Assembly (NCBI GenBank): GCA_038049695.1
Contig: CP142452.1
Location: 36,196,501 to 36,260,500 of the forward strand
Direction of reading: 5' to 3'
Length of the DNA stretch: 64,000 nucleotides
Origin: Cinnamomum chago
Lineage: Eukaryota; Streptophyta; Magnoliopsida; Laurales; Lauraceae
Positions 4,078 to 60,045 of the stretch are shown here, in pieces (positions within the stretch are counted from its first letter, which is position 1; each line of letters begins with the position of its first letter). A model generated the notes under the pieces. That model saw nothing but the letters and a program-made list of their open reading frames with translations. It searched no databases and was not told the origin of the DNA. A program made the position numbers and the translations under genes.

Positions 4078-4359
4078 CTAGGGTGGATGTTGGGACTCCA
4101 ACTTCTTCAACAAAAAGAACGTAATATCCCAGTTGAACCCACGGTACTGGAGCCACCTCACAATCCTTGATTTGCGTGTCTCCAGTGGGAGATCTTTTCC
4201 CCGTAGCCATTGTTTGGAGGCCTCTGCTAAGAGACGATCCAATGAGATCTTAGACATGCCAAGATGGGTGCCTCGATCAGCACCACAGTCGCCATCTTGG
4301 AAAACTTGCTTCATTGCCCTCTCAGCATCTTGTTCAGTCACCCCTTTTCTGAGAAGCGC
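4078..4359 (-). CDS. RECX: RECX exon 6 (C-terminal RecX repeats, stop codon)
   Basis: Codes residues 225-317 and the TAG stop. It opens with [20 protein letters not shown], which continues the WGPRRIKQ helix of exon 5 without a gap. It then carries a plant-type insertion ([19 protein letters not shown]) and ends with the last helix block [14 protein letters not shown], finishing KKLESQHPP. The acceptor is TTGTTTGAACAG. Coding continues left of the acceptor to an ATG at 4377, but those residues do not fit the family. Length and end match a complete RecX C-terminus. Confidence 0.95.
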   Translation of the reverse strand, partial: ALLRKGVTEQDAERAMKQVFQDGDCGADRGTHLGMSKISLDRLLAEASKQWLRGKDLPLETRKSRIVRWLQYRGFNWDITFFLLKKLESQHPP

Positions 4360-10300: not shown

Positions 10301-13300
10301 GTGGTGTTCCTTGTTTGTTTCCACAACATGTCAGTCTAATTGGTATTTATTGATGAATGAATGTTTAGATTCACACATAACAAAGACAGTGGTGCTGCTA
10401 TAATGTATATCTGAATTTATGTTAAGTAGATGGAACCTTGGCCAACTCCCAACATATGAATTTCAGAATGGCTGAACCTACCTAGAGTCCTCTTAACTCT
10501 TTAGTAATGATTTACATACTTCTATGCTTTTCTTGAAAGATTTGGATTATTTACAACTAGAGTAGACATTAGAAAATCTGAATTTTGTTAATGTGGTGAG
10601 TTTTAGGACATGCTGAATCATGTTTGGAAGATTAGAGTTGAGCCGACCTCCACGTATAAATTATTAAGATGGCTGAACCCCTGTCGGGTTCAGGCCATGG
10701 TCGAAACCCATGATATGGGTTCTGGTTGCAACTTATTGATATGAAGGTTTGAACATTATGATTAATTGTTAACTAGTACGTATGTTACATCCATCCATGT
10801 TGTCAAATCATTATTGATGGTTTCGTGAGGCCTGATTTCGTTTATGTGATATTTCCACCCCTTACGGGAATAAGAAACCTATATTGTGATATTCTATGAG
10901 ATTGCCAAGTCATAGCTGGTTCTTATATGGCATATTGTCTATGTTGCTATAGTGTAGTTGATGCCATTAAGCTATATTATGTGACTGCATACGCGAGTTC
11001 TAGTGCTCCAGGCATGAACCTCTTTGCTGGAAGCTGAGTTTTGTTCAAAAGTTGGGTACTGTTTGGAAGAGGAATTCTTTTATAAGTTTTAAAAATTACA
11101 CAAAGACCCCTGCTAGTTTTGGAAAACATGACCAGAACCCCTTTTAACTTTTCCATTCAGAAAATATTAAGGTAGAGCACACTGAATTGTCTAGAATTTG
11201 GTGGATGACTTGGGTTTATCATGCAGCTCTATTATTTTCTTTTACACATGTAAATACTGTATTGATTATAGTGTGAACTGAGGCTGGTATATCCATCTTA
11301 ATGTGATTATTAAATTATGTTATGTTATTCATTGTGTTGCTCCATAAGGTTATGATGAATGATGTTGATGAGGTGTCTCATTCTATCAGGATAATTTGGG
11401 ATATTATTCTTACTACGGGTACCAAGATGGTAAGGGAATGGGTTGACGAACATCAGTATGTACAAAATCTCAAATTATCACGATAACTATACTGGAAAAT
11501 ATTATTGAAAGCTGTTTTCGAAATATTGTTGACCAACTCATTGGACACCCCAGATGCACCAGCACATGAAGCTAAGAGATGAATTCCCAACGTGGCTTTT
11601 AGGGCATCTGCATAATTTCTCTGACTTTTAGGTCAGTTGCATTTTATTTGGCTATAGATTAGCCGTTCGTCTGACTATAGTTTGTCCCTTATGTTTCAAG
11701 AGGCTGCGTAATTTTTCTGACTTTTAGGCCAGTTGCACTTTCTTTGGCTATAGGTCAGCCGTTCAATCGACTACAGCATGCCCCTTGTATTTCGGAGGCA
11801 CCCTTGAGGTGTATGTTATTTTTGGAAGCTTGTGCACACGGTGGTTAGGCATTGGTCCCAAAGTTAAGAGTTAGAAACCTTAACTAAATTAATGCATACA
11901 ATTTTTTTATTGTTTCATAATTGAATTAAGTGCTTCTTTTATTATAATGTTGCACACAAATCTTGTATATGTAGAAATCAATTCACTCAGTATGACTGAT
12001 TGTGTTTCGCCCCAATCCCAGGTATGCTAAACATAGAAAGGCAAGAGGATCCCAATGGCGAAAAATTGGATTTGATACCTGCGGCTAAGCGGGACTCAAA
12101 CAATTTATAACTAGATACATGCTTAGTTGATTCTTTTAAATTATAAGGACTATGTTTTTGGAATTATGTAGTTTATTTGGACATTATTATTGGATTTGGA
12201 TATTCTGTTGATTAAAGGTTCAGATTTTAGGCAAAGCCTGGTTAGTATGCTTGAATGATTTTGATTTATGTTGTGGATATGCTACTGGCTAGTTATGGTC
12301 CGGAATCCGACAGGGCCTCGGACTCCGGGTCATTACATTGGGTGAAGCTCATATCGCAAAAAATTGGGGTTCCTTATCAGTTCTCACAACTGATATTCTC
12401 AAAATATCAGTATCGGTCAATAAAAATTTATTAGTAACAATCCTAACGGCTATAAAAATAGAGGAAGAGAGGGAGATGGGGAAAGCTCCAACTGATCTAA
12501 TACATGTTGCAGTAAAAAAAGGAAGAAAACAGAAATAACAAAGCATATGGAGTTCAGAGGGGTTGCTGGCTTGTATAGCACGGTTTCTTTTACATGCATA
12601 TAATTGGACCTTCACCCTATTGACATGAATGTTTTTATTTAATAAATTACTTCCACGCCAAAAATCAAATAAAGACGCACAGCCAGTGTCTTGATGTACA
12701 ATAAATCAAAAAACACATTGATGATTTTCAGAAAGGACAGTTGTCCATTCTGTATAGGACAGTTATCCATTCTGCTAGTGCTATGCATTTGCTCCAGCAT
12801 GGATTTCAGGATCCACACTCAAAACAAAAAAGGAGTCTGCCTTTGCCCCAATTCCCAAACAATTCCAGTAGACCTCATATATAGTTGTCTATGGAAAGTT
12901 GAAGAAAAAGGTGTAGCAGACCTAAGGAGGTTCCCTATTCCATGCCTACCTGGTCACTAAGCAGAGCACATGATTTGAGATATTTGAATCACTTGCGATT
13001 TGGATGCATCCAAGCATCCAAATAGAAAGCAAAACAAGCAACTACTTATATAGAATATAAAAGTACATAAATGAAAACCATCATATTTTTTAAAATATGA
13101 AAAGAACTTTATTAAGGGAAGTAGTGACTCACTTGCTTAATCCGCCTTGGCCCCCAACTCAAAGAAAACCATCTAGAACGTGAAAATGTTTCCGCATACG
13201 AGTAATCATTAAGCAGACCCCTATAAACAGTAACCTAGAAGGTCAAATTTCTTGAATATATATGCAATTATGCCATATGCACATGCAAGTCCCTTTTATT

Positions 13301-14821: not shown

Positions 14822-14860
<39 letters not shown>

Positions 14861-41599: not shown

Positions 41600-41633
<34 letters not shown>

Positions 41634-47600: not shown

Positions 47601-50600
47601 CCGAAATTGGCGCGCTACTCCCCGGAAAATCCGAGGACTTCCAAGATCGTAGGCCGCAGTGAGGTCCGATTTAAAACTTTTTGACCAAATAATGTTCAAT
47701 GGTTAAAACTTGCGGAAGCATAACATTTGAAAAAGAGCGGAAGCAATGGTATCATATATAATAAAGAAAAGCAGAACAGTGGTCTAATTAAAATAAGTCA
47801 ATGTAAATTTAAAGTTAATACATTTGATCTTTCTACCCTTCTCACAACAAGTTTCGCTCAAAACCCGAATAACAAAGTCACTCAATAACCCTCTATAAAC
47901 TCGTCTCCGCCCTCCGGCTCGACGTCAGTGTCGGCCGGGCCCCATGCGTACTCTCCGGCTACAGGTGCCTCCACGAGGGCTAGAGCGTCGTCGGGAATAT
48001 CTGGGTCAAGGCCTAAGCACCATAGAATGGGTCAGATCTAAACGATCTGGCAAGATACAGCATACTACTAACATAGCATATATATATATCAAAGGAAATA
48101 AAGACGGGTACATAATTTAAATGAATAACAAGGAAAGAGAACTAGGCAATCGTGCATGTAAAGCATAAGGAATCAGTATAAAGAAATCATCTACACAACT
48201 ATAACAAAGTGGCACATTCACACGAGCTGGAATACCGCGGGATATTATGCCGCGGCTCTCCCATACTGAACACAGTCGCGGTGGGGAACCTAACCAGGGA
48301 ATAACTAATCCCGAATACTACTCATCAACTCATCATCTCATCACTCCAGATCGGCACGGCATGACACCTTGCCGTCTTAGCTCATCATGATAGCTCCTCA
48401 ACACATAACTAGCTCCTACCGGGGATGATCAGTCCACAGGCTGAGCTTAAATCAACCGAGTGAATGTTCATGCCGACTCGAGAATAACTCTAAGGTCTGT
48501 GTCTGTCTAGGCTTTGCCTTGCGTGAACAAGGTCCTAACAATACCTCTATAGAGTCTACACATCTCAATACAACCTCTGGACCTCATTCAAGACCCAGGC
48601 CCACTCGTTGGATCCATACCAAGGCCCATCAGTACATGGCCTGGTCTAAAACCGTCCAAACGAGGCAACCAATCCATCTATTACTGACAAACAGTTCCAT
48701 CATAATCCATATAACTTAACAGTCCAATAGAAACTATCTCTTCAAGCTAAAGGGTTCACATCACCACACTTAGGCCCAATAAGGGCCCGCCTAGACACAG
48801 ACACGGGTCAATGATCTCCGAAGTCACATCATCGGGTCACCTCTAGATACCCTAGGTTCAGGTCTTCCAATTATGATTAATTAACGGTAAACAGCTAAAC
48901 TAAAGATCTAAGAATGACAGAGTAATAATAATGAAGTATAAACTTCAATCAGAGAATCAACGGGAAATCCAACGGTCCAATCCTAGGTAATGGGCCACTT
49001 CAGGTTCGGGTCTATCTCCGGTAATTCGATCTCTAAACGATGTCATTAATGCCGTAAAATACTGTATTTGGTGCTTAGTGGGTTAAGGGCATTATCTGAC
49101 AACATTTAGAGGTCGAATCATCTTAGATAATCAACCAAAACACTAAACAGTGGTCCCCGCGAGTCAAGGTTGAGCCACACCGTTGACTCGGGCTAAGGAC
49201 ACTGACAAATGCTCATTTGGATGGTCAATGGGCCCCACAACTGATCATATCTCCTAAGTGTTGAAAACTGGAACAATCAGGGTTTTCCAGGTGAGCCTGA
49301 TGTGTTGTGAGCTCGGTGGATTTCCTGGCCGGGAAGATCAACCGAGTGCACTAACTAATCTGAATCAGGCTTCCTGGACAACTTATATCGTTTCTAAAGG
49401 CTTACAGCGTGTCCGGTCAAACAACCAGGCCTAGGTGATTGACCGCATACTCTGAAAACCTTAGAAAGATTGATGATCCAGCTTTAAACACTTTCTAAAG
49501 TAAAATCCTAAGTATCAAGTCCATTTGGGTGTAAGGAGTCTGAGTTTTGATTGAAGAACCAACTTTCAGTCACTTCCTGCACAAATAGCGTGAATCGGGT
49601 CAACCGGTGCGAGACCAGGTCAACCCGACTATTTGAAATGAAATTTGTGCAAGAAATGGCTAAGGGCCAGTTTTTCCAAGAAATCTCAGTGTGGCCGGTT
49701 AACCGGCCTGCATAGTCCGGTTAACCGGCTGCACTGCAGCAAGCCCCTGCAGAAGAAAATAACTGGGAGCTGCCATTTCTGTAATTTCAGTGTGGCCGGT
49801 TAACCGGCCTGCAAAGCCCGGTTAACCGGCTACACTGCCGGTTAACCAACCGGTTAACCGGTTACACGAAACTGGGACAAAACCCAGTTTCTGCAGTCAC
49901 TCTGTTTTGGCTCCATTTCCACCCAAACTACTTCCAATCTCTTCCAATCCCAACCAAAACTTCTCCAAGCATAAACCAACTCATTAACCATCCATTAAAC
50001 TACCTTATGGCCCACTGATCTTCCAAATGGGGGGTGAAAACCCCCATCCATCAGTGACCTTTCCATCCATTAAACACAAAAACAGAGCTCATGCAGATTT
50101 CTATACTAAACAAACACATCCATGAATTAAAGCTATAGGAATCAATAGACAACACATATATGCTAATTTAGGAGTATGAGCACTTGCCTTATGTGAAGTG
50201 GGTTGCAAAGAGAAATAGCTTGAAGAGGGAAAGAACCCAAAATTCCAGCAGAACAGAGCAAGAAGAAGAAGAAGATGGACCAGCTGAGCAGCAGCAGCTC
50301 TTAGAAATCGTTTTCCAGCCCAATATCAGTAGTTACAGCTCTTAGGAATAGATTCCAGCAGGGTAACAGGGTCTCAAGTGATGAAATGGGGAGGAAGAAG
50401 ATGACCCAGCTGAAATGATGAAGAGGGAGATGACAGCAGCAGCAACAGGGGGAATTTCAGCAGTAGTAGGTGGTTCCAGCAGTGGTGACAGCAAGAGAAA
50501 TAAAGAAGATGAAGTGGGGTGGCTGCTGTAGTGGCTTCAAGATGAATTCCAGCTGAGATGAAGTGGTTGCAGCACAGCCCAGGTGGGTTTCTTCTGGCAC

Positions 50601-53600
50601 AGAACCACCACAGCAACTTGGAAGATGAAATGAGAAGGAAAGGTGGGTGATATCAGTAGTTCCTGGAAAAATTCCAGCAGAGTAACGGTAGGGAGAAGAA
50701 GAGGAAATCCAGCAGAAACTCTTGTGATGGATTCCAGCAGTTCAAGCAAGATGAATGAAGAAGATGATGAACACCACAGTTGCTGTTGAGATGAATTCCA
50801 GCAACAGTTCCAGCCCAGCAAGAGAATAAGAAGATGAAGTGAAGACGGCTACAGCAGCTATGTGGAAATGAGATAGGAAGGAAGGTGACAGCAGTAGCAA
50901 CAGAGCTCTCAATGGGATTCTTTGCTCAACGTGGGAGAGAAAATGAGGGAGGAAGAGAGGAAATGGAGAGGTAGTTGGGTGGTTTTTTTTTTTTCTTGGG
51001 AAGAGAGCTGGAAGGTTTCTTGGGATGGGGGCTGGGATTAGGGTTTTGAAATGAGTTGCAAAAGTTTAAGAGATATTATATAGGATTAGTAAAGTAGTTA
51101 GGGACCATAATACCCTTAGGGTTTAGGGGAATTAGGGTTAGGGTTTAGGGGTGATTGGGTCATTTGGTGAGGAAGCTTCTAGAGAGGGCACCCTTAACCA
51201 AAACTAAACCTAACTTAATTAATTAATTAACTCAATCTAAGGCCTAATTAACACTAATAGCCTAGGATTAAATCTAAAGCACCCAACTAGCCATTCTAAC
51301 TCAACTAAGCTATTCTACCCAACTTAGGAAAATCTAACTAACCCTCCTAGCCAACCCCTAATAAGCTTAATTAAATAGTAATTAGCCAAGATTAGTAAGG
51401 ATTAGCAAAGATTAGCGAAGATTAGTATAATTAAACAATAATTAAGATAAATTAAGATTAATTAGCCTATAAAATAGCCCTTAGAGGGCCCACCAAGGGT
51501 GGGACCTCACAGACAAAACAAAAGGAAAGTTATTGTTGTCTCATTTGGCATTGTTTATCAAATCATACCAAAAGGAATGCCAACAACAATTCTTAAAAAG
51601 AATATCAATCCAATTAAATATCCAAATTATGAAATGACAGCCGAAAGGGTGAGCCCAACTGAATGGAAACCCCAATTCCAATCCCTTACCGAATTTAACA
51701 AAAACTCAAGCAATCATAAGGAGAAAAGTAGTAGAAAGCTAACTCCAAATGCAACAATCCACCACTTAAAACAACCTTCAATCCTTGGGAGAAATTATTT
51801 CTCAAACCAATAGGAGAAGAAAATAATAATTGCAATAATGCAATTTTATTGATAAAAGATTAATAAACCAGCTAGGGTTGGGCGTTCCATAGCTATGCTT
51901 TTATGATTATCATACTAAAATCATCTTAAGATTATTTCTAATCCCAGCCTTTAATCATGTCTAAACAATATAGACAAACCTATCAAAATAATGTCCTTAT
52001 TACAATGCATTACTTAAACTCAAATGAAAGGAACTTAAATAGAAAGTCTAGCTGGCAAATCCTCCATCACTTGGGCATCCCCTTCCTTGCACGGATCATC
52101 TTGCCTTCTTGCATGATCTTTCCTCTTGCTACTTCAATAACTCCTCCAACTCGGCCACTATCTTAGAAATTTCTTGAGTAAATGACTCCTTCATGGACAA
52201 TGAACCTGTTATGGGAAAGTTTCCATTCATGATATTGCTTGCATTGGAATTAATTGGATGTCCCCCACTAAGGGGGCTGTGGTCCCCACTTTTTGGATCG
52301 ATGGGACCGGTCAATGGGGCATGAGAATGCACCAGGTCTGATGGGCCTGATTTGGAGTGCGTTGGGCCTGATTTGGGTCATGATCCATGGACCCCAAATT
52401 AGACAATGTACAACAATTGTTCGTCATGTTTGGCCTTGATTGGACCTGATTAGATGGTCCAAATGATCATTAAAGTGCTGTTTTGATTTAATTAATTTTG
52501 AACATTCAACAACTGATTTGGATCCATCTCTACGACGCCCAAATGCTGCTGGATACAGCAGGACATGCCGTGGAGATCATAGAGACAGATTTTACATATA
52601 GAAATATAATATGCCACAATACATTGCCTATTTTTAAGTATCCAGGTACCATAGCTTCAACCACCTGAACTCATCATAGAAAAGCTATTTATGGTCCTTT
52701 ATGTACATGTCCAGACCATTTCAAATAATATACATTGATCGTCTTTTTCTTTCATTGCAACTATACATAGGTGTCATCAATGTTTGAATTCCCAATGCCA
52801 TCCTCTCCAATAACTAAAAACATCAGTATTAGCAACTACGTCACAAGTACTTTTATCTCTTTCTCCTTTTCCATTGTCCAACATTCTGATTCATGTACCA
52901 AAATAGATCTAATGGTTCTACACATTTATAGTTCATAAATGCATAAAACAGCGGGAGGAGAGAGAGGACGAGAAGGGGTTTACACCATAAAAAAACATAA
53001 CCAAACCAAACCAAGCCTTTTCCCACTAGGTGGGGTCGGCTATATGGATTTGACGACGCCAATCAAATCTGTTTAGGGCCATGTCCTCCGTTAGATCCAT
53101 GTAGGCAAGGTCATGTTTAATAGTTTCTTTCCAACTTCTCTTGGGTCTCCCTCTCCCTCTCCTACTCCGGGCAATCTCCATGCTTTCACACCCTTTAATA
53201 GGTGCCTCCGTTGGGCGCCTTCTAACATGGCCGAACCATCTCAGTCGATTTTCTCTCATTTTATCTTTAATCGGTGCTATTCCTATTTTGCCCCTAATCT
53301 CCTCATTCCTAATCCTATCTCTCATTGTGATCCCGCACATCCTTCTTAGCATTCTCATCTCCGCAACTTCCATCTTCTTAACATGATTGTGCTTTACTGC
53401 CCAACACTCTGATCCATATAATAACGCTGGACGTACCGCCACCTTATAATACTTTCCTTTAACCTTGAGGGGGACTTTCCGATCACACAAGACCCCCGAA
53501 GCACTCCTCCATTTGGTCCACCCGGCCTGAATCTTGTGACTTACATCAGTATCAATCTCTCCATCCTGTTGCGCCATAGATCCAAGGTACCTAAATTTTT

Positions 53601-56600
53601 CTTTCTCTACAATCTTTTGTGTGCCCAAACTTACTTCTAAGTTACCAAGTGTCCTACTTTGACTAAACTTGCATTCCATATATTCCGTCTTGCATCGACT
53701 TAGCCTAAACCCTTTTATCTCTAACGTTTTCGCCACAATTCTAGCTTAGCATTCACTCCTTCTCTCGTTTCATCCACTAAAACAATGTCATCTGCAAATA
53801 GCATACACCACGGCACATCATCCTGAATATGTCTTGTAATCTCATCCATAACTAGGGCAAACAAGTACGGGCTTAACGCTGAGCCTTGGTGTAGACTAAT
53901 CGTGATAGGAAACTCTTTAGTCTCTCCGCTAGTCGTTCTTATAGATGTCACGGCTCTATTATACATATCCTTTATCGCCTCAATATATGCGACACACACT
54001 CTTTTCTTTTCCAGTACTCTCCATAGAATCTCCCTAGGAACTCGGTCATGGGCTTTCTCCAAGTCAATGAACACCATATATAAATCTCTCTGGCCTTCTC
54101 TATACTGTTCCATTAACCTTCTCAGGAGAAAGATAGCCTCCATGGTTGATCTCCCAGGCATGAAACCAAATTGATTCTCTGAAATGTTTGTTGTTCTTCT
54201 TAATCTTCTCTCAATAACTCTCTTCCATAATTTCATTGTATGGCTCATCAATTTAATCCCGCGGTAGTTCGCACAGTTCTGAATATCTCCTTTGTTCTTG
54301 TATATGGGTATAAGAATACTTTTCCTCCATGCATCAGGCATCTTCTTGCTCTTTAGCACTACATTAAAAAGCTTTTTTCTTTTTTTATTTACACCATAAA
54401 AAAACATAAGAGCAATATTATCATTATATATAATTATGGATCCATCTACATACAAAAGGATAAAGATTTATCATCATCGTCATCATCATGAAAGCCTTGT
54501 CCCAACCATGTTGGGGTCGGCTACATGAATTCTATTTCTCCATTCCGATCTATCTTGGGCCAAATCCTTAGATAAGTTGTACTTTTTCAGGTCCATTTGT
54601 ACTATCTCCATACACATTCTCTTCAACCTACCCCTTTCCTTTGGTGAGCCATCAACCTACATAGCCAAACTTTTCCTTATTAGCATCATTGCCAGCCTAC
54701 ATTGGACATGCCCAAACCATCTCAAATGGGTTTCTCTAATTTTATCCGCTATTAATGTTGCCCCTAAGTGCTCTCGAAATCGCACATTTCTAATTTTATC
54801 CTCCCTACTTTTACCACACATCTACCTCAACATTCTCATATCTGCTACATCTATTTTGTGCATATGTTGCTTCTTAATTAGCCAACATTCTACTCCATAG
54901 GCCATAACTGGTCTAATCACAGTCCTGTAAAAAATTTCCTTCAATCTTGTTGGCATTTGTCGATCACAAAACACTCCATAAGCAAGTCTCCACTACAACC
55001 ATCCCGCATTTATCGTATGTTCAACATCTTCATCAATCTCTCCATCCTTATTAATTATCGAGCCAAGGTAACAAAAAGAATCTATTTGTGGCATCTCGTG
55101 GGCTTCGATTCTCACAGTAGTTTCAACTCTTTATATATGCTCACTGAAGTTGTAATCCATATGTTTTGTCTTTGTAAGACTTATTTTTAAAGCCTTTGGA
55201 TTCTACAGCCTCCCACCATCTCTTGGATTTTGCATTCACATCATCTCTTGATTCATCCACCAACACTATATCGTCTGTAAACAACATATACCAAGGTACC
55301 TGCTCTTGAATATGAGCAGTTAACTCACTCATAATCAATGCAAAGAGATAAAGGCTTAGAGTTGACCCCTAATGCAAACCTATCCTCACTGCAAAATCAT
55401 ATGTTTCTCCACAGGTGGTTTCCACACTCAATATTGTTCCTTCGTACATGTCTTAAATAATATCAATATAACATCTTGGAACAATCTTTTTATTTAAAAC
55501 CCACCAAATTAAATCTCTAGGTACTCGGTCATACGTCTTTTCTAGATCTATGAAGACCATAAGCAAATTCTTCCTCTTCGCTTGATATTTTTTCTTTAAT
55601 TGCCTAAGTGAGAAAATAGCTTCTATAGTTGACCTCCCTGGCATGAAACCAAATTGATTTTCAGATATCTTGTCATCTGTCTAAGTCTTTGCTCGATTAC
55701 TCTCTCCCAAAGCTTCATAGTATGACTCATAAGTTTAATCCCACGTTAGTTGATACAATTTTGTATATCTCCCTTATTCTTATATATATATGTACTACAA
55801 CACTTCTTCTCCATTCATCCGGCATCTTCTTTTTCATTAATATTTTATTGAAGAGCCTAGTTAACCAAATCAACCCAACTTCTCCTAAGCATTTCCAAGC
55901 CTCTATCGGAATGTCATCTAGACCTGTAGTCTTTCCTACCTTCATTTGTTTTTATGCTTTCCTCACTTCCACCACCCTAATTCTGCGAAAAAATGTATGT
56001 ATAGTTAAAAAAGTATCCTCTCTTTTGTTCTTATGTCTCTTACAAGGTCTTCATTTAAAAGTTTACTAAAATATTCCCTCCACATTTCTTAGATAACATT
56101 GTCATTCAATAGACATTTTGGTCATTGCTTTTAATACATTTGACATAATCTAAGTCCCTACTTTTGTCTTCCCTTAGTTTTGAAAGTTTAAACATATCTC
56201 TCCTCCTATTGTTCCCAATCTATAATATAGGCCATCATATGCTTTGAACTTTGCATCACTTACAACCTTCTTAGCTTCTTTCTTTGCCTTCTTATACATC
56301 TCATAGTTTTCCATATTCCTAGTCCCCCGCCAAACTTTGTCAACCTACCTAACGCAACCCTCCTTTACTAGGGCTTGGGACCGACAATAAAAACTAGCAT
56401 TCGCCATCAACTGTTCAAAACTAGAGAAAGCTATCTCATGCAGATCCTTACCTATGACTAGCAGTAGCCTTGTTATTTTGAGAGGTCCCAGCATGTTAGG
56501 TGACAGAGAAAATTGCCAAAAATGGTATGCCCATGTTATGTACGTTGTAAGAAACCAACCTATACAACTGCATTTGTGAAATTGATGCAGTCAACAGTCT

Positions 56601-59600
56601 GACACACCAACTCATTTAGGAAAATAAAAAGAACTGCAGTAGGGCTGTGTATTCTGCAGAATCATACCATTTTCAGCATCAAATATTCTCTTGGTGTGGG
56701 AACATTGATAACGAGCCCCATCTTGCAAAATCCATGATCCTTGTGTAGTTACATCTTTTAAGAAAGTTGAATATGAAGAATGATGAGGAGAATTTCCACC
56801 TTTGCTCTGGGAGTAATTTCTACAAATGCATCTCACAAAATATGAGTGGGAAGCTTTAGAGCAGCTAATGGCACTTGCCTTCTTCACCCTAAAAGTGGAG
56901 GAAAATAGATAAATGCCACCAAAAAGATAGGGTTATAAATTATAACCTCCTCAAACTTAAAAGACAAAAAAAATGCTGCATAGAAGCTTACAGAGAACAA
57001 ATTATATTAATGAATATTCCATTGATAAAATTTGCTAATACCAAATGCATATGTTGCACATTCATGACACAAAAGCCTGAATCAAGGGAGAGTGGGGTAC
57101 GGTGTATCTCAACTGATCCAAAATAGGCGCTCTTCAAATAAGTAAATGTGAACATATGGAATTTTCTTAAATTCATCAGTGCTTATACATGTTAGAAAAC
57201 AAGGTAAGGAGAGGATACCATTTTCGGAATGGTAATACACTCAGCGCACCCCTCAAACCTGACTTTTACTTTATGAATACAAATGGAAAGGGAAAGGTTT
57301 GGTAGCTATTCTTGATATTTTTTTCTACTTTAGTGCAAATAAAACTTGTATTATGGAAAGGGAAAAGGGTAAGTGTCACCTCATCATCATAAATAACATT
57401 GTCACCAACAACAAACTCCTCTTCGCCCTTGTGATTTGGTTCCACCTTGTTGGCTTCTACACCTTTTTGCAAAAATTATGTCACTTGTGACACTTCGACA
57501 AAACATTGCCAATTTTGTTGCATTTGAAACCCACTCTATTGCCTGCCTCTTCAACGTGGGCCCTAGTTCCAGGTGCTTGTGTAGCACTTCGTGACCAAAT
57601 GGGCTCCACCTTAGAGCAACTACTGCTGCCTTTTTGGTGGTTTGTGTGGTTTGAAAATAGCTTAGTGTGTTGTGGTTGCTTCTTCATGCATTTCTCCGCA
57701 AGGTTTGCCTTCTACAGAAAGATTGGATCAAAACCCATCTAATCAAATATGGATTGCCTTCTAGCAGGAGCGGTCAGTCTGTTAAAAAGATCTGTTTGTA
57801 TTACAAGATCGGGATCTGACACTACATAGCATACAAGAGTCAAGTGCCAAGGATGACTCCACAAGGACCGCAACAATAAACATGATATCTAATGGAGGCA
57901 GCCTGATGAATAATGTTTTGGAAGGAGTTATTGACAAGCTGAACTTTCCAACTGCAAAACATTTGCACCTATGTAGTGTTGAATGGATTAATGATGAAGC
58001 CATACCCATGAACAAAAGGTGTCTATTTACATTCATTATCAGAATTTATGAAAACTAGCTATTGTGATGTTAATCCTATGAATGTCACGTGCATTCTCTG
58101 AAAACTACTTGGCTGTTTGATCATAAGATGCATAAGATTGACATTTCCACAAATCTCCGGCTAAAGAAGAAAATCATCAAATATTTTGCATTGATTTCAT
58201 CGGTGATGGCTCCATTGGAACGCTAAAGAGCTTACGCTTCAGTTCCGCAATCAATCTTTGCCCCATCTCCCTCCCCTCCAGGGGCGGACCTAGGTGTTGG
58301 GACACAGGTGCGGCCACACCCGCGAGATTCGAAAAATTCCTTAAATAATACCTTAAAAAATTTTACTTTCTTAATTAACTTCTCAACTTGACCGTTGCCC
58401 GCACCACCCAAATGAAAATCCTGGGTCTGCCATTGCAGTCCCCTCCTCCCGGCAACCCCACCCCCTAAATTCCCCATTCTCCTCATCGATATTGTACAAT
58501 ATGTTTTAGCTACTACTAATCATTTTAAACATGACTTCCATTAAATAAGTATTAATGACACAATAATTTAAATGCAATGACACCATATGAAATTGTATAA
58601 AATAATAGAGTATATTTAAATTATTTGCACAAATGTTTACTATTTTTCTAAATTTATATGTTCCATTTTTTAGTATTTGATTAAAAAAATTTGGTAAGGA
58701 GTATTACACTTATGCCCTACGTCTCAAGATATCTTAATGCCTCATGACAGACATTTCTCCCTAATGAATTAATGAAGTGAAGCAACATCCAAATCCAGAT
58801 AAATCCATTAAGGGTGTTTGTGGATGTCCACAATGTCATTCTTTTGCCCATAATCATATCCCCGTGTTGATGCAGGCCCTAGACTTGGGGATTGTGAGAA
58901 ATGCCGAAACACAATATTGGTGCCGACTGCCGAAGCACATGTCCACAGACACTTCAACAAGTCTCCACATAGACCAGATAAGGTGGACGCACCTCAATGG
59001 GGAAACCCAAATTCAATCAATCAACTCTAAAAATACATCTTCTACAATGCCATATAAATAGGAAACATAACTTAGGCCCTAAGAAAACTAATAGAAATAG
59101 GAAACTAAGCAAACCTATCCCAATTACAACTCTTTAAATAAAATTAGGAAACTAATGATATATAATAATAAAAAGTCATAAATTAACTTGGGCCCTACGC
59201 ATGTGGCCTTTGAGGTCTATCATGCATCACGTGTACTCTTGTCTACCTTTCCCCTCTCTTCCCTACTTGTCCATTAACTCTTCTTCAACTAGTATACTTT
59301 CTCCATTAGGTATATCTTGTACTACTTCATCCATCAAGTCTCAAAAAGTTAGTTTTATTGTTTTCACTTAAACTTGTCTGGGTGCATAAGCACGAATAAC
59401 ATTTTAAATTAGAACTTAGAATTTATAGCTTTCATTTTTAGACCTTAATCTAATTATCCACGAACATATTTTTAGGCAATTTTTTTATGATGAGTTGGAC
59501 ATCCCCACTAGGCACTACATCCATTTTTTTTGCTTTTTTTGCTAGAAGGGTGAGTGACACACAACCTGTGCGACAACCAACCCTGGGCAGGTGTGTGAGA

Positions 59601-60045
59601 TCAGACACCCTTGCCACTGGGGTCTCCCGTGTTTCTCCCCACTACGCACGTCATCTTAGACGATAGGTTTGGTGATGGAAGGTGGAACCTCTTCGAACTC
59701 CGCCGCCAGGTTCTAACATCAAAGACATCTTATTTTAATACAGAAGCAGGAAGAAGACTTCTTTCCCTGACCAAAACCAATTTCAGTGCCAATCACCCAC
59801 ATCACATTATGTAATTCGCAATCTTGGTGTATGAGAAACACACCAAGAAACAAATGACCGCCAATTGGCTAAGTGAAATCCTCTAATTGCCACAATTTCA
59901 ATTGTAGAGTGTGTGGAATGGAAATGAAAAGAAAGAGACACATATGTATGTATGTTTGTTACCATGGAATAAGGAGATTGCGAGATCGAAGGTCGACCGA
60001 GAATTGAATGGTGAGATTCCCTGCAAAAAACGCCATCTTCCCCAT
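4078..60045 (-). CDS. RECX: RecX-family regulator of RecA, plant organellar; six-exon gene (whole coding span)
   Basis: Spliced CDS of 954 bp (317 aa) from exons 59963-60045, 56668-56888, 33474-33660, 18542-18634, 13133-13220 and 4078-4359. Every join restores a codon: Trp28 (TG+G), Glu102 (G+AG), Arg164 (AG+A), Arg195 (AG+G), then a phase-0 join. All introns are GT...AG. RecX proteins bind RecA and modulate its filament and recombinase activity; plant homologues are nuclear-encoded and act in organelles. Residues 1-55 are rich in S, K and R with few acids, as in a transit peptide. Residues 102-155 are an acidic linker. From about 150 the RecX helix repeats follow, with the typical TxxELxxKLxGKxFP, GLLNDxxYAExFxRSRW and [15 protein letters not shown] blocks, and a C-terminal [14 protein letters not shown] block. 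No internal stop or frameshift. Introns of 3.1 to 23 kb are filled with transposons. The join of exons 1-3 rests on phase and motif logic; exons 3-6 are very secure. Confidence 0.88.
4784..4912 (-). repeat. Interspersed repeat family R, inverted copy
   Basis: Read on the minus strand it matches copies at 28027-28134, 28851-28980 and 52535-52658: GATGCCC..ATAC, GACATGGATTTTA.ACAT, GAAGTATCGGATA, TATTTTGAAGTATCC. No terminal repeats or coding potential seen, so class unknown. Confidence 0.7.
4913..5542. other. RECX intron 5, A+T-rich, nothing recognised
   Basis: Ordinary-looking intronic DNA between an interspersed repeat and a candidate TIR element, with a short poly-A run near 5342. Confidence 0.4.
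5543..6050. mobile_element. Possible TIR element, about 0.5 kb
   Basis: The left end GTTGGAAAACTCAGTGGG with TTGACTCTTGACTCGG inward resembles the complement of the right end (GTTGTGAAACTCCTGACTTG, then GACTTGACTCG). No target duplication could be fixed. The interior is A+T-rich. Confidence 0.4.
6668..7113. mobile_element. hAT-type non-autonomous element, 446 bp, perfect 8-bp TSD
   Basis: Ends TATGGATGTAAA and TTACATCCCTA are inverted repeats. The octamer AATGGCCT occurs immediately outside both ends (6660-6667 and 7114-7121), a perfect hAT-size duplication. The interior is rich in GGGTCCGGGTCC / GGACCCGGACC motifs. No ORF. Confidence 0.9.
7794..8224 (-). pseudogene. RTE-type LINE, 3' fragment (reverse transcriptase C-terminus)
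   Basis: The minus frame ending at 7805 carries the RTE pol tail: [57 protein letters not shown]. It is nearly the same as the C-terminus of the longer LINE at 53001-54387, including the untranslated GGTGGGAAAAGGC end. Homology stops near 8224, so the copy is strongly 5'-truncated. Catalytic parts are absent. Confidence 0.88.
9453..10059. mobile_element. GACTCGG-family MITE, long copy (0.6 kb)
   Basis: Starts with GGTTTAAAAAGCTGGACTCGG and ends ACTTGGCCAATTTTTTAAACC, inverted relative to each other. Shares both ends and GACTCGG/CCGAGTC motifs with the 192-bp element at 45010-45201. Its centre is an A-rich then T/C-rich tract of low complexity, which creates spurious reading frames. Confidence 0.65.
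11604..11800 (+). repeat. 96-bp tandem duplication inside the solo LTR
   Basis: CTGC.TAATTT.TCTGACTTTTAGG.CAGTTGCA..TT.TTTGGCTATAG.T.AGCCGTTC occurs twice, offset by 96 bp. Confidence 0.8.
12338..13132. other. RECX intron 5, 5' part, nothing recognised
   Basis: Plain A+T-rich intron. A 89-codon plus frame at 12691-12960 has no recognisable domain and is on the strand opposite to RECX. Confidence 0.4.
13133..13220 (-). CDS. RECX: RECX exon 5 (second RecX helical repeat)
   Basis: Codes residues 196-224: [17 protein letters not shown] then [12 protein letters not shown]. The GL(I/L)(N/D)D..YA..F.RSRW and WGPRRI motifs are diagnostic of RecX. The acceptor is CTGTTTATAG after a pyrimidine-rich tract and the donor is CAA|GTGAGT. 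The exon is only 88 bp long. Confidence 0.94.
13983..14022 (-). mobile_element. RTE LINE 3'-tail remnant
   Basis: On the minus strand it reads TTGGGACAAGGCTTTGATGA with further ATG repeats, the same end as the LINE at 54470-56400. Only the tail remains. Confidence 0.6.
14360..14388. repeat. (AT)n microsatellite
   Basis: AT run directly after GTTGCCCCG. Confidence 0.9.
14824..14859. repeat. (CT)n microsatellite
   Basis: Eighteen uninterrupted CT units. Confidence 0.95.
14860..15890. other. RECX intron 4, nothing recognised
   Basis: A+T-rich DNA with T/C-rich patches near 15355-15480. No gene, LTR or TIR element identified. Confidence 0.4.
15891..17735 (+). mobile_element. Small gypsy-derived LTR element lacking RT/IN (TR-GAG-like), 1.8 kb
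   Basis: 5' LTR 15891-16231 starts TGATGCAGTGG and ends TTGCATCA. A primer-binding site TTGGTATTAGAGCC (initiator Met tRNA type) follows at 16233-16246. The 3' LTR at 17431-17735 starts TGATGCACCAGC, has an internal deletion and a degraded end, and is preceded by purine-rich TTGGGGAGAA. The interior holds a C-rich leader and a protease remnant only. Such elements must rely on an autonomous partner. No 5-bp duplication found. Confidence 0.8.
16968..17330 (+). pseudogene. Gypsy-type retropepsin remnant
   Basis: [20 protein letters not shown] is a retropepsin active-site block with DGG in place of the usual DSG. After a frame change it continues [17 protein letters not shown] then VTIFPMKP, the usual segment after the LGRPW motif. 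Broken by a frameshift near 17200 and lacking reverse transcriptase. Confidence 0.7.
17748..18075 (-). mobile_element. Inverted LTR of the TGATGCA family
   Basis: Reverse complement of the 15891 LTR: on the minus strand it begins TAATGCAGTAGCAATACCACG and ends CAGCACTTGCATCA. It lies 12 bp from the direct 3' LTR, so the two form a large palindrome. No clear target duplication. Confidence 0.8.
18076..18541. other. RECX intron 4, start side
   Basis: Short intronic stretch between the inverted LTR and the exon 4 donor. Nothing recognised. Confidence 0.4.
18542..18634 (-). CDS. RECX: RECX exon 4 (first RecX helical repeat)
   Basis: Codes residues 165-194: [16 protein letters not shown] followed by [14 protein letters not shown]. 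This is the hallmark first repeat of RecX, in which a short helix with EL..KL precedes a helix ending in VI..F. The acceptor is CTCCTGCAG and the donor is near-perfect AAG|GTAAGT. AG at the end joins G of exon 5 to give Arg195. A TGA upstream in frame shows the exon does not extend left of the acceptor. Confidence 0.93.
18635..19280. other. RECX intron 3, near exon 4
   Basis: Contains the pyrimidine-rich stretch and acceptor of exon 4 on the minus strand. Nothing else recognised. Confidence 0.4.
19281..19567 (+). repeat. 144-bp tandem duplication
   Basis: CTGGACC.GTCCCAACAGAT to CATACAGGATCAA is present twice, at 19281 and 19425, with few differences. A TGATCGTGATATGATCA near-palindrome lies in each unit. 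Confidence 0.85.
19640..19720 (+). repeat. 41-bp tandem duplication
   Basis: Two adjacent copies of GGCAGTACTCTCTACACAAC followed by ATCAC.TAGCAAATCAAA. Confidence 0.9.
19746..19812 (+). mobile_element. Collapsed gypsy LTR fragment with primer-binding site
   Basis: TGTCGCGTCCCGAATCC resembles gypsy LTR termini elsewhere in the window. Less than 50 bp on comes AAGTGGTATCAGAG, a Met-tRNA primer-binding site leading to gag. Most of the LTR must have been lost. Confidence 0.5.
19949..21112 (+). pseudogene. Ty3/gypsy gag with zinc knuckle, degenerate
   Basis: Pieces in different frames read as one gag: [63 protein letters not shown], and a CCHC knuckle [16 protein letters not shown] near 20850-20900. 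Stops and frameshifts break it at about 20230, 20337 and 20530. It stops at an abrupt junction with minus-strand pol near 21115. Confidence 0.85.
21113..22600 (-). pseudogene. Ty3/gypsy protease and reverse transcriptase, inverted relative to gag
   Basis: Read right to left. Retropepsin block [19 protein letters not shown] (about 22500), then [20 protein letters not shown]. The RT N-terminus is [14 protein letters not shown], then [12 protein letters not shown] and CADYRQFN. After a gap comes the RT core [26 protein letters not shown] and [10 protein letters not shown]. The catalytic D is present in FIDD. The region 21532-21772 is damaged. RNase H and integrase are missing; it ends at [10 protein letters not shown] next to plus-strand gag. 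Confidence 0.88.
22637..24806 (+). mobile_element. Probable gypsy LTR, 2.2 kb
   Basis: Starts (T)CTAATGACCC and ends GGCCCCGGATTCGGGACTGTCA, matching the end style of the other large LTRs. No coding potential. It may belong to the element whose pol lies just left. No target duplication established. Confidence 0.5.
23329..23481. repeat. Cluster of AACCCTAGATC / GATCTAGGGTT motifs
   Basis: Three CCCTAGATC copies, two of them paired at short distance with GATCTAGGG to form imperfect hairpins, within the LTR. Confidence 0.75.
24802..24850 (-). mobile_element. Copia LTR fragment (family A), minus orientation
   Basis: TGTCAAAGCCAGCAAGAAG and the following 30 bp match the end of the LTR at 27669-27934. 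Similarity stops near 24850. Confidence 0.65.
24851..25468 (+). other. Copia 5' leader region
   Basis: Non-coding sequence before the copia gag frame; I could not fix an LTR end or primer-binding site in it. Confidence 0.35.
25469..27655 (+). pseudogene. Ty1/copia gag-protease-integrase, truncated before RT
   Basis: Gag N-terminus [20 protein letters not shown], then a CCHC knuckle [14 protein letters not shown]. The protease site [10 protein letters not shown] is followed by [20 protein letters not shown]. In integrase come [41 protein letters not shown] and INRLPSP, ending at RTKLTP. Several stops and frameshifts. Reverse transcriptase and RNase H are absent: coding breaks off where an inverted primer-binding site and LTR begin. 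Confidence 0.9.
27656..27934 (-). mobile_element. Copia LTR (family A) with adjacent primer-binding site, minus orientation
   Basis: LTR 27669-27934; its reverse complement runs TGTTAAATGGGTCAG to TTGCTGGCTTTGACA. Immediately inside (27656-27668) the complement of AGCTCTGATACCA reads TGGTATCAGAGCT, a Met-tRNA primer-binding site. This fixes the 5' LTR of a minus-strand element. The same LTR occurs as a split solo LTR at 34337-39692. Confidence 0.85.
28027..28134 (+). repeat. Interspersed repeat family R
   Basis: GACATGGATTTTATACAT, GTGAAGTATCGGATAC and CATTTTGAAGTATCCATG match the other three copies. Confidence 0.75.
28851..28980 (+). repeat. Interspersed repeat family R
   Basis: Second direct copy, about 0.8 kb from the first, with GATGCCCAAATACGGCATGG at its left and TATTTTGAAGTATCCATGAG at its right. 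Confidence 0.75.
28981..30371. other. RECX intron 3, repeats but no recognised gene
   Basis: The 29250-29670 stretch has many TTTCGG/CCGAAA and GGTTTGG/CCAAACC motifs, suggestive of a decayed MITE, but ends could not be defined. Confidence 0.35.
30372..30729 (+). mobile_element. LTR of the TGATGCA family, probably solo
   Basis: Starts TGATGCAATGC, contains GACTCATGGACCACATGTGG and a TTATATGGCATTGTAGA stretch, and ends GGTTCTGCATCA. Close to the LTRs at 42592-47270 and 58868-59229. No duplication of 5 bp seen. Confidence 0.7.
30730..32579. other. RECX intron 3, possible decayed hAT element
   Basis: TAGAGGTGTAAAAGGGC at 31171 and GCCCTATTGACAACCTTA near 32503-32520 could be decayed inverted ends, with GGGCCGGGC-type motifs inside each. 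Target duplication is not convincing. No gene. Confidence 0.3.
32580..33165 (-). pseudogene. Ty1/copia reverse transcriptase fragment with microsatellite expansion
   Basis: Minus frames give [12 protein letters not shown] (the YVDD catalytic motif), then [20 protein letters not shown], and [20 protein letters not shown], all in copia RT order. AAT/AAC triplet repeats at 32970-33005 and GAT-type triplets near 32895 swell the region around YVDD. Multiple stops. Confidence 0.8.
33474..33660 (-). CDS. RECX: RECX exon 3 (acidic linker and start of RecX domain)
   Basis: Codes residues 103-163 after Glu102: an acidic stretch starting [14 protein letters not shown], then [15 protein letters not shown], which is the helix preceding the RecX domain. 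The acceptor is ATATCGCAG with a weak pyrimidine tract; the donor is the non-consensus but valid GTTTGA. The last two bases AG plus the first base A of exon 4 make Arg164, giving the continuous family block [16 protein letters not shown]. Intron 2, on its 5' side, is 23,007 bp. Confidence 0.85.
33661..34331. other. RECX intron 2, acceptor side
   Basis: DNA between the exon 3 acceptor and the first transposon. Two minus frames here (33745-33987 and 34056-34337) lack conserved motifs and the correct splice context. Confidence 0.45.
34825..35312 (-). pseudogene. Copia RNase H, truncated
   Basis: [20 protein letters not shown], then [16 protein letters not shown] and [13 protein letters not shown], followed by unrelated residues. 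The part after YSDSD (normally D-W-G...) is missing, so the active site is incomplete. Confidence 0.8.
35313..36674 (-). pseudogene. Copia integrase C-terminus and reverse transcriptase
   Basis: A 453-codon open frame. Residues 1-120 are the end of integrase ([37 protein letters not shown]). After a Pro/Ser-rich linker comes [85 protein letters not shown] and the catalytic [13 protein letters not shown]. This RT looks intact; flanking frames are broken. Confidence 0.93.
36679..37533 (-). pseudogene. Copia protease end and integrase core, frameshifted
   Basis: [20 protein letters not shown] (protease to integrase link), then integrase core [20 protein letters not shown] and [11 protein letters not shown], in at least two frames. 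A stop lies after KQHAFP near 37035. Not functional as it stands. Confidence 0.85.
37472..38233 (-). pseudogene. Copia gag C-terminus and protease
   Basis: Gag body [15 protein letters not shown] and [12 protein letters not shown], a zinc-knuckle remnant [11 protein letters not shown] without its last Cys (CxxC..H..then ETAQ), and the protease site [14 protein letters not shown]. Joined to the upstream gag frame by a frameshift near 38230. Confidence 0.88.
38230..38610 (-). pseudogene. Copia gag N-terminus
   Basis: Probable start [20 protein letters not shown], then [19 protein letters not shown] and [16 protein letters not shown], typical copia gag (UBN2-like). I prefer the Met at 38610 over that at 38661 because family similarity begins there. 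Confidence 0.85.
40343..40948 (-). pseudogene. Copia RT C-terminus and RNase H remnant
   Basis: [39 protein letters not shown] and ISYAVNLMS (RT end), then RNase [21 protein letters not shown] and ALISWK in another frame. The Asp residues of YSDADW are kept; the rest is degraded. Confidence 0.9.
41011..42120. mobile_element. 1.1-kb TIR element nested in the copia remnant
   Basis: The left end AGAGGTCGTTTGTCT and the complement of the right end AGGGGTTGTTTGTCT lead into extended inverted homology including ATTTAC..ATGTAAATG. It interrupts the space between RT and 5' LTR. Contains a 27-T run (41607-41633). No transposase. Class uncertain (hAT-like). Confidence 0.7.
41753..41870 (+). repeat. 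71-bp direct duplication
   Basis: AAATGCGTTGGAGGGGG.TTT.GAACCCAAAACCTCTTT occurs twice, offset by about 71 bp, separated by T-rich DNA. Confidence 0.85.
44274..44893 (+). mobile_element. Solo gypsy-type LTR, 620 bp
   Basis: TGTAATACCCCGGGCCCGG start and GGATTCCGGGTCATTACA end. Flanks ATGTT and ATGTC agree at 4 of 5. Nested in the internal region of the 4.3-kb element. Confidence 0.8.
45010..45201. mobile_element. GACTCGG-family MITE, short copy (192 bp)
   Basis: CATGGTTTAAAAAAACAGAC at the left is inverted as GATTTTTTAAACCATG at the right. The inside is packed with GACTCGGCCGAGTC-like palindromes. Same family as 9453-10059. Confidence 0.8.
45205..46421 (+). pseudogene. Gypsy-type gag C-terminus and retropepsin
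   Basis: [20 protein letters not shown] (45210 on), then [14 protein letters not shown] and [13 protein letters not shown] are gag. [20 protein letters not shown] is retropepsin with DNG for [16 protein letters not shown] and [13 protein letters not shown] follow in a new frame. A Lys/Glu-rich tail runs to 46421. Stops at 45300 and 45717 break the frame. No RT follows. Confidence 0.8.
47558..51511 (-). mobile_element. Very large gypsy-type solo LTR, 3,954 bp, TSD GACAA
   Basis: On the minus strand it starts TGTGAGGTCCCACCC and ends GGAATTGGGGCGTTACA. GACAA lies directly outside both ends (47553-47557 and 51512-51516). No gag or pol inside. Contains a GGCGGAGACGAGTT-type block near its end, a CAGCAG/GAAGATGA-rich tract at 50230-50900 and a cluster of CCGGTTAACCGG palindromes. 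Confidence 0.9.
49687..49868. repeat. CCGGTTAACCGG palindrome cluster
   Basis: The 12-bp palindrome occurs at about 49695, 49717, 49795, 49818 and 49850, with a half-site at 49838. The first pair and second pair sit in a 101-bp duplication (CAGTGTGGCCGGTTAACCGG at 49687 and 49788). Confidence 0.9.
51517..52534. other. RECX intron 2, nothing recognised
   Basis: A+T-rich DNA; several short frames without motifs. Confidence 0.4.
52535..52658 (+). repeat. Interspersed repeat family R, diverged copy
   Basis: AGACAGATTTTACATATA, ACATTGCCTATTTTTAAGTA and TCCAGGTACCATAGCTTC align with the other copies. Confidence 0.6.
53026..53736 (-). pseudogene. RTE reverse transcriptase C-terminal part
   Basis: [14 protein letters not shown]-type block (here [20 protein letters not shown]), [65 protein letters not shown]. 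Continues the RT core after a frameshift. Almost the same as the fragment at 7794-8224. Confidence 0.92.
53721..54387 (-). pseudogene. RTE reverse transcriptase core
   Basis: [80 protein letters not shown] and [19 protein letters not shown]: the canonical non-LTR RT blocks, with the FADD catalytic pair. [17 protein letters not shown] is present. Ends in a frameshift near 53730. The apparent ATG at 54455 lies outside the LINE. Confidence 0.93.
54470..56400 (-). pseudogene. Second, older RTE LINE, degenerate
   Basis: The 3' end reads GGTTGGGACAAGGCTTTCAT followed by ATG repeats. RT pieces in several frames: [88 protein letters not shown] (FADD altered to FTDD) and [13 protein letters not shown]. 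Farther right are traces of the endonuclease-RT linker. Clearly older than its neighbour. Confidence 0.85.
56668..56888 (-). CDS. RECX: RECX exon 2 (basic, Ser-rich N-terminal region)
   Basis: Codes residues 29-101 (begins [10 protein letters not shown], ends KRIFDAEN) with one base left over. The acceptor is a good pyrimidine-rich CTCCACTTTTAG; the donor is GTATGA. The leftover G joins AG of exon 3 to give Glu102. The segment is Ser/Lys/Arg/Cys-rich, fitting the end of a transit peptide followed by a variable linker. There is no conserved domain here, so the assignment depends on phase, orientation and open frame. Confidence 0.72.
56889..57265. other. RECX intron 1, acceptor side
   Basis: Carries the exon 2 acceptor with its pyrimidine tract (minus strand). 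Nothing else recognised. Confidence 0.4.
57266..57690 (-). pseudogene. Gypsy-type gag zinc-knuckle remnant
   Basis: Minus frame [19 protein letters not shown] resembles a CCHC knuckle region, followed in another frame by residues rich in K/E. Too decayed to place further. Confidence 0.45.
57790..58080 (+). pseudogene. Gypsy-type retropepsin remnant
   Basis: Plus frame with [40 protein letters not shown] and [10 protein letters not shown], then a CDVIPMN-like tail. Similar layout to the proteases at 16968 and 45600, but the catalytic triplet has become SNGG. It lies opposite to the zinc-knuckle remnant on its left. Confidence 0.55.
58279..58437. mobile_element. Short hAT-like MITE, 159 bp
   Basis: Left end CAGGGGCGGACCTAGG; right end complements to (TG)CAATGGCAGACCCAGG. 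Flanking octamers CTCCCCTC and GTCCCCTC match at 7 of 8. Resembles the ends of the 528-bp element at 60744. Confidence 0.7.
58438..58867. other. RECX intron 1, A+T-rich, nothing recognised
   Basis: No element ends or coding motifs seen. Confidence 0.4.
58868..59229 (-). mobile_element. Solo LTR of the TGATGCA family, TSD CGTGT
   Basis: Both ends are TGATGCA...TGCATCA, a perfect 7-bp inverted terminus. CGTGT flanks both sides (58863-58867 and 59230-59234). On the minus strand it matches the LTR at 42592-47270 (GGGCCCAAGTTAATTTA, AAAGAGTTGTAATT, TTTATATGGCATTGTAGA). Confidence 0.92.
59235..59962. other. RECX intron 1, donor side
   Basis: Starts at the exon 1 donor GTAACA. A+T-rich, no recognised element; short frames lack motifs. 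Confidence 0.4.
59963..60045 (-). CDS. RECX: RECX exon 1 (start codon, presumed transit peptide)
   Basis: Codes residues 1-27 plus two bases of Trp28. It starts [10 protein letters not shown] and ends RNLLIPW, with donor GTAACA directly after. ATG at 60045 is the first Met after an in-frame stop at 60097-60099. A second Met lies three codons on and could equally be used. Little acidity, several Ser/Arg/Leu: consistent with the start of an organelle-targeting peptide. The donor phase (two bases, TG) matches the exon 2 acceptor (G), giving Trp. Assignment is inferred from phase, strand, position and targeting-like composition; a 5' RACE or transcript would settle it. Confidence 0.75.

Follow-up and report, generated by a model that had tools for sequence, protein, structure and literature searches.

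The window, a stretch of 64,000 nucleotides of the Cinnamomum chago genome (C2:36196501-36260500), contains six minus-strand exons that join in phase into a stop-free protein of 317 residues followed by a stop codon, and this protein carries the domains of RecX. In chloroplasts and mitochondria, RecX regulates the recombination of DNA. The gene spans 55,968 bases, of which the exons, ranging in size from 83 to 282 bp, make up 954 nt including the stop codon, or 1.70% (98.3% intron); the coding frame without the stop codon is 951 nt. Introns 1 to 5 measure 3,074, 23,007, 14,839, 5,321 and 8,773 nt, four of the five being longer than 5 kb. All five are GT-AG introns, in phases 2, 1, 2, 2 and 0, and ten of ten splice dinucleotides are intact. 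The model consists of the following features (positions in the window):

59963..60045, minus strand: exon 1, 83 nt; ATG and GT donor; residues 1-27, where the presequence-like N terminus begins
56668..56888, minus strand: exon 2, 221 nt; residues 28-101; in phase, AG/GT borders
33661..56667, minus strand: intron 2, 23,007 nt, phase 1, GT-AG; the largest intron
33474..33660, minus strand: exon 3, 187 nt; encodes an acidic linker and the beginning of RecX_HTH1
18542..18634, minus strand: exon 4, 93 nt; remainder of RecX_HTH1
13133..13220, minus strand: exon 5, 88 nt; encodes the opening part of RecX_HTH2
4078..4359, minus strand: exon 6, 282 nt; completes RecX_HTH2, encodes RecX_HTH3 and holds the stop codon

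Judged against the splice-site consensus, the acceptor of exon 3 is without an adjacent pyrimidine tract and its donor, GAG/GTTTGA, looks weak. An Rfam scan at gathering scores gave no matches, and no tRNA was found by a tRNA scan with the bacterial setting.

Exon reconstruction, RecX domains and copy number

The first-pass annotation had named six exons without listing them, and their coordinates were therefore rebuilt. A home-made profile was prepared from three bacterial RecX sequences (E. coli and two others) and used to rank 2,303 stop-to-stop ORFs of at least 18 aa on both strands. The ORFs of exons 6 and 5 (4380-4081 and 13234-13115) came out as ranks 1 and 2, with weak E values of 0.061 and 0.18, and that of exon 4 (18651-18541) as rank 7 with an E value of 14; among the minus-strand ORFs of the interval the three were ranks 1, 2 and 3. 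Exon 3 was picked by eye from a list of acidic ORFs, using frame and sequence. For exon 1 we used the ATG at 60045, the end coordinate given by the first-pass annotation. For exon 2 the interval offered 34 AG..GT candidates of 200-240 nt in a compatible phase, and our selection was partly guided by the previously reported total of 317 residues and intron of 23 kb, both of which are fitted by a length of 221 nt. Three of the 34 candidates had this length, and the other two lay inside a reverse-transcriptase stretch (53026-54467). Exons 1 and 2 thus depend on the earlier finding, from which the end coordinate, the 317 residues and the 23-kb intron were taken over.

The rebuilt model gave the same figures as had been claimed before, namely six in-phase exons of 83-282 bp encoding 317 residues with no stops, about 98% intron (98.3%) and a largest intron of 23 kb (23,007 bp). 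The description of the locus as one intact RecX gene with transposon-filled giant introns likewise agrees with the joined frame, the Pfam domains and the mobile elements in the introns. The observation is thus confirmed in its main lines, the two 5' exons being its least supported part.

When the joined protein was searched against Pfam, three consecutive RecX three-helix domains were found in the right order, all above the Pfam cut-off of 26: RecX_HTH1 (PF21982) at residues 153-190 (32.8 bits, E 6.6e-8), RecX_HTH2 (PF02631) at residues 199-240 (44.3 bits, E 2.1e-11) and RecX_HTH3 (PF21981) at residues 264-303 (33.2 bits, E 5.9e-8). In NCBIfam, 16 RecX models matched the joined protein at E<=1, the best with an E value of 1.6e-19 over residues 150-246. 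None of the 16 reached its curated equivalog cut-off (best 70.6 bits vs. a cut-off of 175), and the protein was not filed as a bacterial RecX equivalog. Alignment with E. coli RecX gave 45 identical positions out of 155 aligned.

We also compared the scores of single and joined exons. Exon 3 alone had no Pfam match and exon 4 alone gave 19.0 bits with HTH1 (profile positions 12-38); together they gave 25.1 bits (positions 1-38), a gain of 6.1 bits that brings the score just below the cut-off of 26. Exon 5 alone passed the cut-off with 27.2 bits for HTH2 (positions 1-26), and addition of exon 6 raised this by 19.4 bits to 46.6 bits (positions 1-42). Exon 6 alone passed the cut-off for RecX_HTH3 with 30.3 bits. 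Junctions 3/4 and 5/6 are supported, since RecX domains run across them and the scores rise on joining, and junction 4/5 is supported because the NCBIfam and E. coli RecX alignments run through it. The match of exons 3-6 to RecX exceeds chance.

Codon usage was tested with a training set of 2,590 codons from the matches of control genes to E. coli queries (see below), leaving out segments with stops, the gltB-like copy on C3 and five short or overlapping rows. The score of exon 3 was reached by 0.6% of stop-free segments and that of exon 4 by 0.5%, whereas the other four of the six exons (1, 2, 5 and 6) scored at background. Exons 5 and 6 are well supported by homology nonetheless, and the test is weak because these two exons fail it as well.

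The genome (1,061,006,199 bases in 14 contigs) was searched with the joined protein at E<=10, and all seven first-look candidates were scored. The seven rows were the six exons and one row on C10, which at an E value of 2.75 was taken as chance. In the rows of exons 1 and 4 the match includes a stop, and we attributed this to the alignment overrunning the exon end; exons 1 and 2 each occurred at one genome place. Exon 6 alone as a query gave one row at E<=1. At E<=10 the search with the joined protein revealed neither a further RecX locus nor a processed copy, so the second intact RECX locus, which the first-pass annotation had named as evidence against its reading, did not turn up. A single nuclear copy is in line with plant RECX genes, which are reported as single-copy in excerpts of PMC7076466. 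When the whole unspliced genome was searched with PF02631 (RecX_HTH2), none of the 16 candidates that were scored matched at E<=0.001; the most likely reason is that this domain is interrupted by an intron.

The N terminus and the 5' exons

Exons 1-3 together match no Pfam family, which would fit a lineage-specific N-terminal region, yet lends it no support. Residues 1-80, which come from exons 1 and 2 and are without independent domain or codon support, contain 2 acidic, 10 basic and 18 Ser/Thr residues. A low content of acidic and a high content of basic and Ser/Thr residues is typical of organellar presequences. Arabidopsis RecX (At3g13226) is said to be 382 residues long, 65 more than the 317 of our model, and this shortfall may reflect a missing N-terminal exon, a wrong exon or simple divergence. 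We scanned the introns for further in-phase exons; the scan, a test of low power, gave no convincing host exon, and its top scorers were partly recognisable mobile-element frames and partly frames that could not be placed.

It is possible, although we do not think it probable, that the RecX gene is real and its 5' model wrong or incomplete, with exon 1 or 2 false or an extra exon lying in intron 1 or 2. Exons 1 and 2 have no domain support, their codon scores are at background, the interval holds 34 phase-compatible candidates of 200-240 nt, and the Arabidopsis protein is longer. Against these points stand the two exons themselves, each of them in phase, bordered by GT/AG and confined to one genome place, as well as the presequence-like composition of the joined N terminus and the outcome of the extra-exon scan, low in power as it was. 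An error of this kind would leave the RecX domain (exons 3-6) standing and is compatible with the main explanation, that of a nuclear RecX gene with inflated introns.

Mobile elements and the state of the gene

The window contains 156 ORFs of at least 75 aa, and 19 of them, 17 inside the gene span, were scanned with Pfam. Mobile-element domains above the cut-off were found in eight of the 19, another three matched a family only below the cut-off, and the remaining eight had no match at E<=0.01. The following elements were recognised:

34500..39576, minus strand: Copia LTR element in intron 2, nested in an older repeat; 302-bp LTR blocks with 8 differing sites, K 0.027
42751..47004, strand not assigned: candidate LTR element in intron 2; direct repeats 42751-43109 and 46650-47004, K 0.075
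47558..51511, strand not assigned: solo LTR in intron 2; 3,954 bp with TG..CA termini, flanked on either side by the target-site duplication GACAA
53026..55839, minus strand: reverse-transcriptase remnants in intron 2, two related copies; RVT_1 in 53721-54467 and 55456-55680
21094..22413, minus strand: protease and reverse-transcriptase remnants in intron 3; RVT_1 21094-21546, RVP_2 22144-22413

Domains of Copia type (reverse transcriptase, SH3, gag and gag-pre-integrase) were present in the ORFs 35313-36887, 38230-38715, 40667-40972 and 26864-27118. The end of the Copia element at 39576 was placed from its TG..CA termini and an imperfect 5-bp duplication, and related copies reach 39571-39576 at 92-94% identity. 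An inverted copy of the older repeat that the element has split lies at 27654-27934 in intron 3, about 6.6 kb off; because this copy is uninterrupted, the empty site is directly readable. The one ORF scanned in the candidate LTR element (45972-46418) gave no domain match. A third pair of direct repeats (39876-40127/42237-42479, K 0.14) flanks Copia remnants, its status as an LTR pair being unproven.

To sample further copies of intron sequence across the genome, we used 36700-56660, which covers most of intron 2, as the query. With 30 of 20,729 candidates scored, at least 57 genome matches were obtained, each of them falling within either the solo LTR or the Copia element, and within the same sample the relatives of the solo LTR longer than 1.6 kb were 91-99% identical to it. 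These relatives included four groups (on C1, C2, C6 and C9) in which they stand in twos, threes or fours, 8.7-9.0 kb apart, e.g. at C1:107.94-107.97 Mb and C2:26.547-26.567 Mb; such spacing looks like whole elements and multi-LTR arrays. Going by the Copia element and the solo LTR, intron 2 has gained elements and has probably lost most of one by LTR-LTR recombination.

The two reverse-transcriptase remnants of intron 2 are 68% similar to each other (53746-54355 and 55229-55839) and are probably LINE-type, while those of intron 3, with the protease, are probably Gypsy-type; in both cases we infer the type. We also noticed that 7792-8224 in intron 5 and 53013-53445 in intron 2, beside the reverse-transcriptase remnants, are 96.5% identical over 433 bp. 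In intron 4, a repeat of roughly 250-350 bp occurs three times within 2.2 kb (15891-18073), twice in direct and once in inverted orientation, and at 19280-19568 two 144-bp units that are 94% alike abut in tandem within one stop-free frame. As judged by domains, LTR pairs and the solo LTR, mobile elements appear to be a main content of the introns above 5 kb. Across the rates assumed, among them 1.5e-9 (rounded from PMC8626473), K values of 0.027 to 0.14 translate into ages between roughly 1 and 47 million years.

The ages of the insertions were used to ask how surprising an open RecX frame is. With a nonsense fraction of 4.3% for the RecX coding sequence, the stops expected without constraint were 0.55, 1.5 and 2.9 for K of 0.027, 0.075 and 0.14, respectively, and the corresponding chances of seeing no stop 0.58, 0.22 and 0.06. 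When frameshifts were added, assuming one indel per ten substitutions, the chances dropped to 0.25, 0.02 and 0.0007. The open frame thus favours selection since the older insertions, on the basis of few repeats and an assumed indel rate, and says little for the time since the youngest one, for which the chances are 0.58 and 0.25. The first-pass annotation had deduced purifying selection from the intact exons; this is indirectly supported for the period since the insertions at K 0.075 and 0.14, over which an intact frame is less likely to have persisted unconstrained, and the pair at K 0.027 tells little.

A recently dead pseudogene, in which the insertions halted proper splicing and the frame is open merely from lack of time, appears improbable. 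The youngest datable insertion would allow it, its stop-free chance without constraint being better than even, and loss of the gene is perhaps tolerated, as moss RECX knock-outs had no significant morphological phenotype according to excerpts of PMC7076466. The older repeats make a stop-free frame considerably less expected, the more so with frameshifts, all splice dinucleotides have survived, and we found no other RecX in the genome, while plants are reported to carry one. A chance assembly of unrelated reading frames into a RecX look-alike has practically nothing left in its favour, although a chain of six exons over 56 kb allows many combinations and the home-made profile gives individual exons weak scores, since exons 5 and 6 each pass a RecX Pfam cut-off alone and the joined protein has three ordered domains with E values of 1e-8 to 1e-11; the Pfam scores rule it out for exons 4-6 and leave it very improbable for exon 3. 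We consider it very likely that the locus holds one intact RecX gene, present as a single copy and inflated by mobile elements.

Gene length, proposed function and known systems

To place the length of the gene within the same genome, control genes were located exon by exon with E. coli GltB, GyrA, RecA and PNPase as queries. Several matches in one neighbourhood were counted as a locus, which gave ten control loci whose spans are minimum values over the matched parts; six rows matching only the C-terminal part of PNPase were left uncounted. Six of the ten loci spanned more than 20 kb (46.7, 29.0, 23.5, 26.4, 34.0 and 46.6 kb) and four less (7.6, 4.6, 3.6 and 8.4 kb), the 4.6-kb locus carrying stops. 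At 56 kb, RecX is the longest of the eleven loci and not of another kind. The rarity that the first-pass annotation had attached to such a gene was overstated, given these control loci and the long mobile-element-rich introns already published. In the RecA-like gene on C2, two matches adjoining in the protein lie 13,962 bases apart, the outer one being weak (E 0.002, two stops), and the gap points to another single intron of about 14 kb. The glutamate-synthase-like locus at G000:C3:104339132-104343717 has ten stops in its longest match and seems to be a decayed copy, with better-preserved ones present on C10 and C11.

The exon structure, the RecX domains, the single genome place and the intronic mobile elements were seen directly. 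On these grounds we hold with good confidence that this is the plant's nuclear RecX gene, transcribed and spliced, with introns inflated by mobile elements and a product that would be imported into organelles and tune RecA there. The gene, the only one as far as found, would yield a precursor transcript of at least 56 kb, from which the spliceosome would remove the five GT-AG introns. These would have grown by successive insertions of Copia, probably Gypsy and LINE, and other elements between, and not in, the short exons. The product would most likely enter mitochondria and/or plastids, where its three three-helix domains are expected to bind and tune RecA-type recombinases, and such tuning would limit recombination between short repeats. 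Full-length transcription through silenced intronic elements may need a complex of the IBM2/ASI1 type, by analogy with Arabidopsis and rice genes with heterochromatic introns; excerpts of PMC7145194 report that in these two plants loss of the IBM2 complex leads to premature polyadenylation in introns with silenced elements.

A further idea, which we regard as very doubtful, is that heterochromatic giant introns keep organelle-recombination genes low or conditional in expression, so that silencing and release of intronic elements would tune recombination of organelle DNA. What is seen for it is co-occurrence, in RecX, in the RecA-like copy with its apparent 14-kb intron and, elsewhere, in MSH1; long genes in this genome also include those resembling gyrase A, PNPase and glutamate synthase.

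The relevance of the locus is for gene-finding practice rather than new biology. It serves as a clean worked example of a gene that mobile elements have drawn out to 56 kb and whose 951-nt frame has remained open. It also shows why genes of this sort can escape domain searches run on unspliced plant sequence: RecX_HTH2 came up blank against the genome at E<=0.001, yet scores 44 bits on the joined exons.

With the known plant RECX proteins (Arabidopsis At3g13226 and Physcomitrella RECX) the gene shares the C-terminal RecX domains, an N-terminal extension and single copy number. The moss protein is described in excerpts of PMC7076466 as located in both organelles and as binding RECA1 and RECA2 in the yeast two-hybrid assay. 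Among the literature matches listed, we recognised none on the structure or size of plant RECX genes. A similar architecture is known from MSH1, likewise a mostly single-copy organelle-recombination gene expanded by mobile elements; according to excerpts of PMC10487979 it exceeds 50 kb in 34 green-plant species, its introns reach 101,025 bp, and gene length and TE content are correlated. It is another gene, however, with 22 introns in most of the gymnosperms studied there as opposed to five in RecX here. Introns in Arabidopsis that are longer than 5 or even 10 kb consist mainly of transposons and were confirmed by RT-PCR (PMC5575664, in part); they are rare in that plant and, going by the title of the paper, shorter than the 14.8 and 23 kb found here.

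Genome-wide surveys offer the broadest comparison. In Chloranthus spicatus, 876 of 2,184 orthologs are longer than 20 kb with introns expanded by LTR elements, and the same result was obtained on introns with RNA-seq support only (excerpts of PMC8626473). In grapevine, excerpts of PMC3058033 list 2,697 introns of 3-100 kb that were mapped by ESTs and consist of repeats to over 80%, as well as 188 clusters that matched several annotated genes, an error ascribed to large introns; in general terms this supports the remark of the first-pass annotation that automatic annotation would probably report fragments or nothing. These surveys concern other species and have RNA or EST evidence for their introns. 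They share with the RecX gene the expansion of introns by insertions of LTR elements and LINEs, and in them genes above 20 kb or introns between 3 and 100 kb occur frequently. Mobile-element-inflated plant genes of this size are thus already well documented, and the RecX gene described here is an ordinary, tidy example of them.
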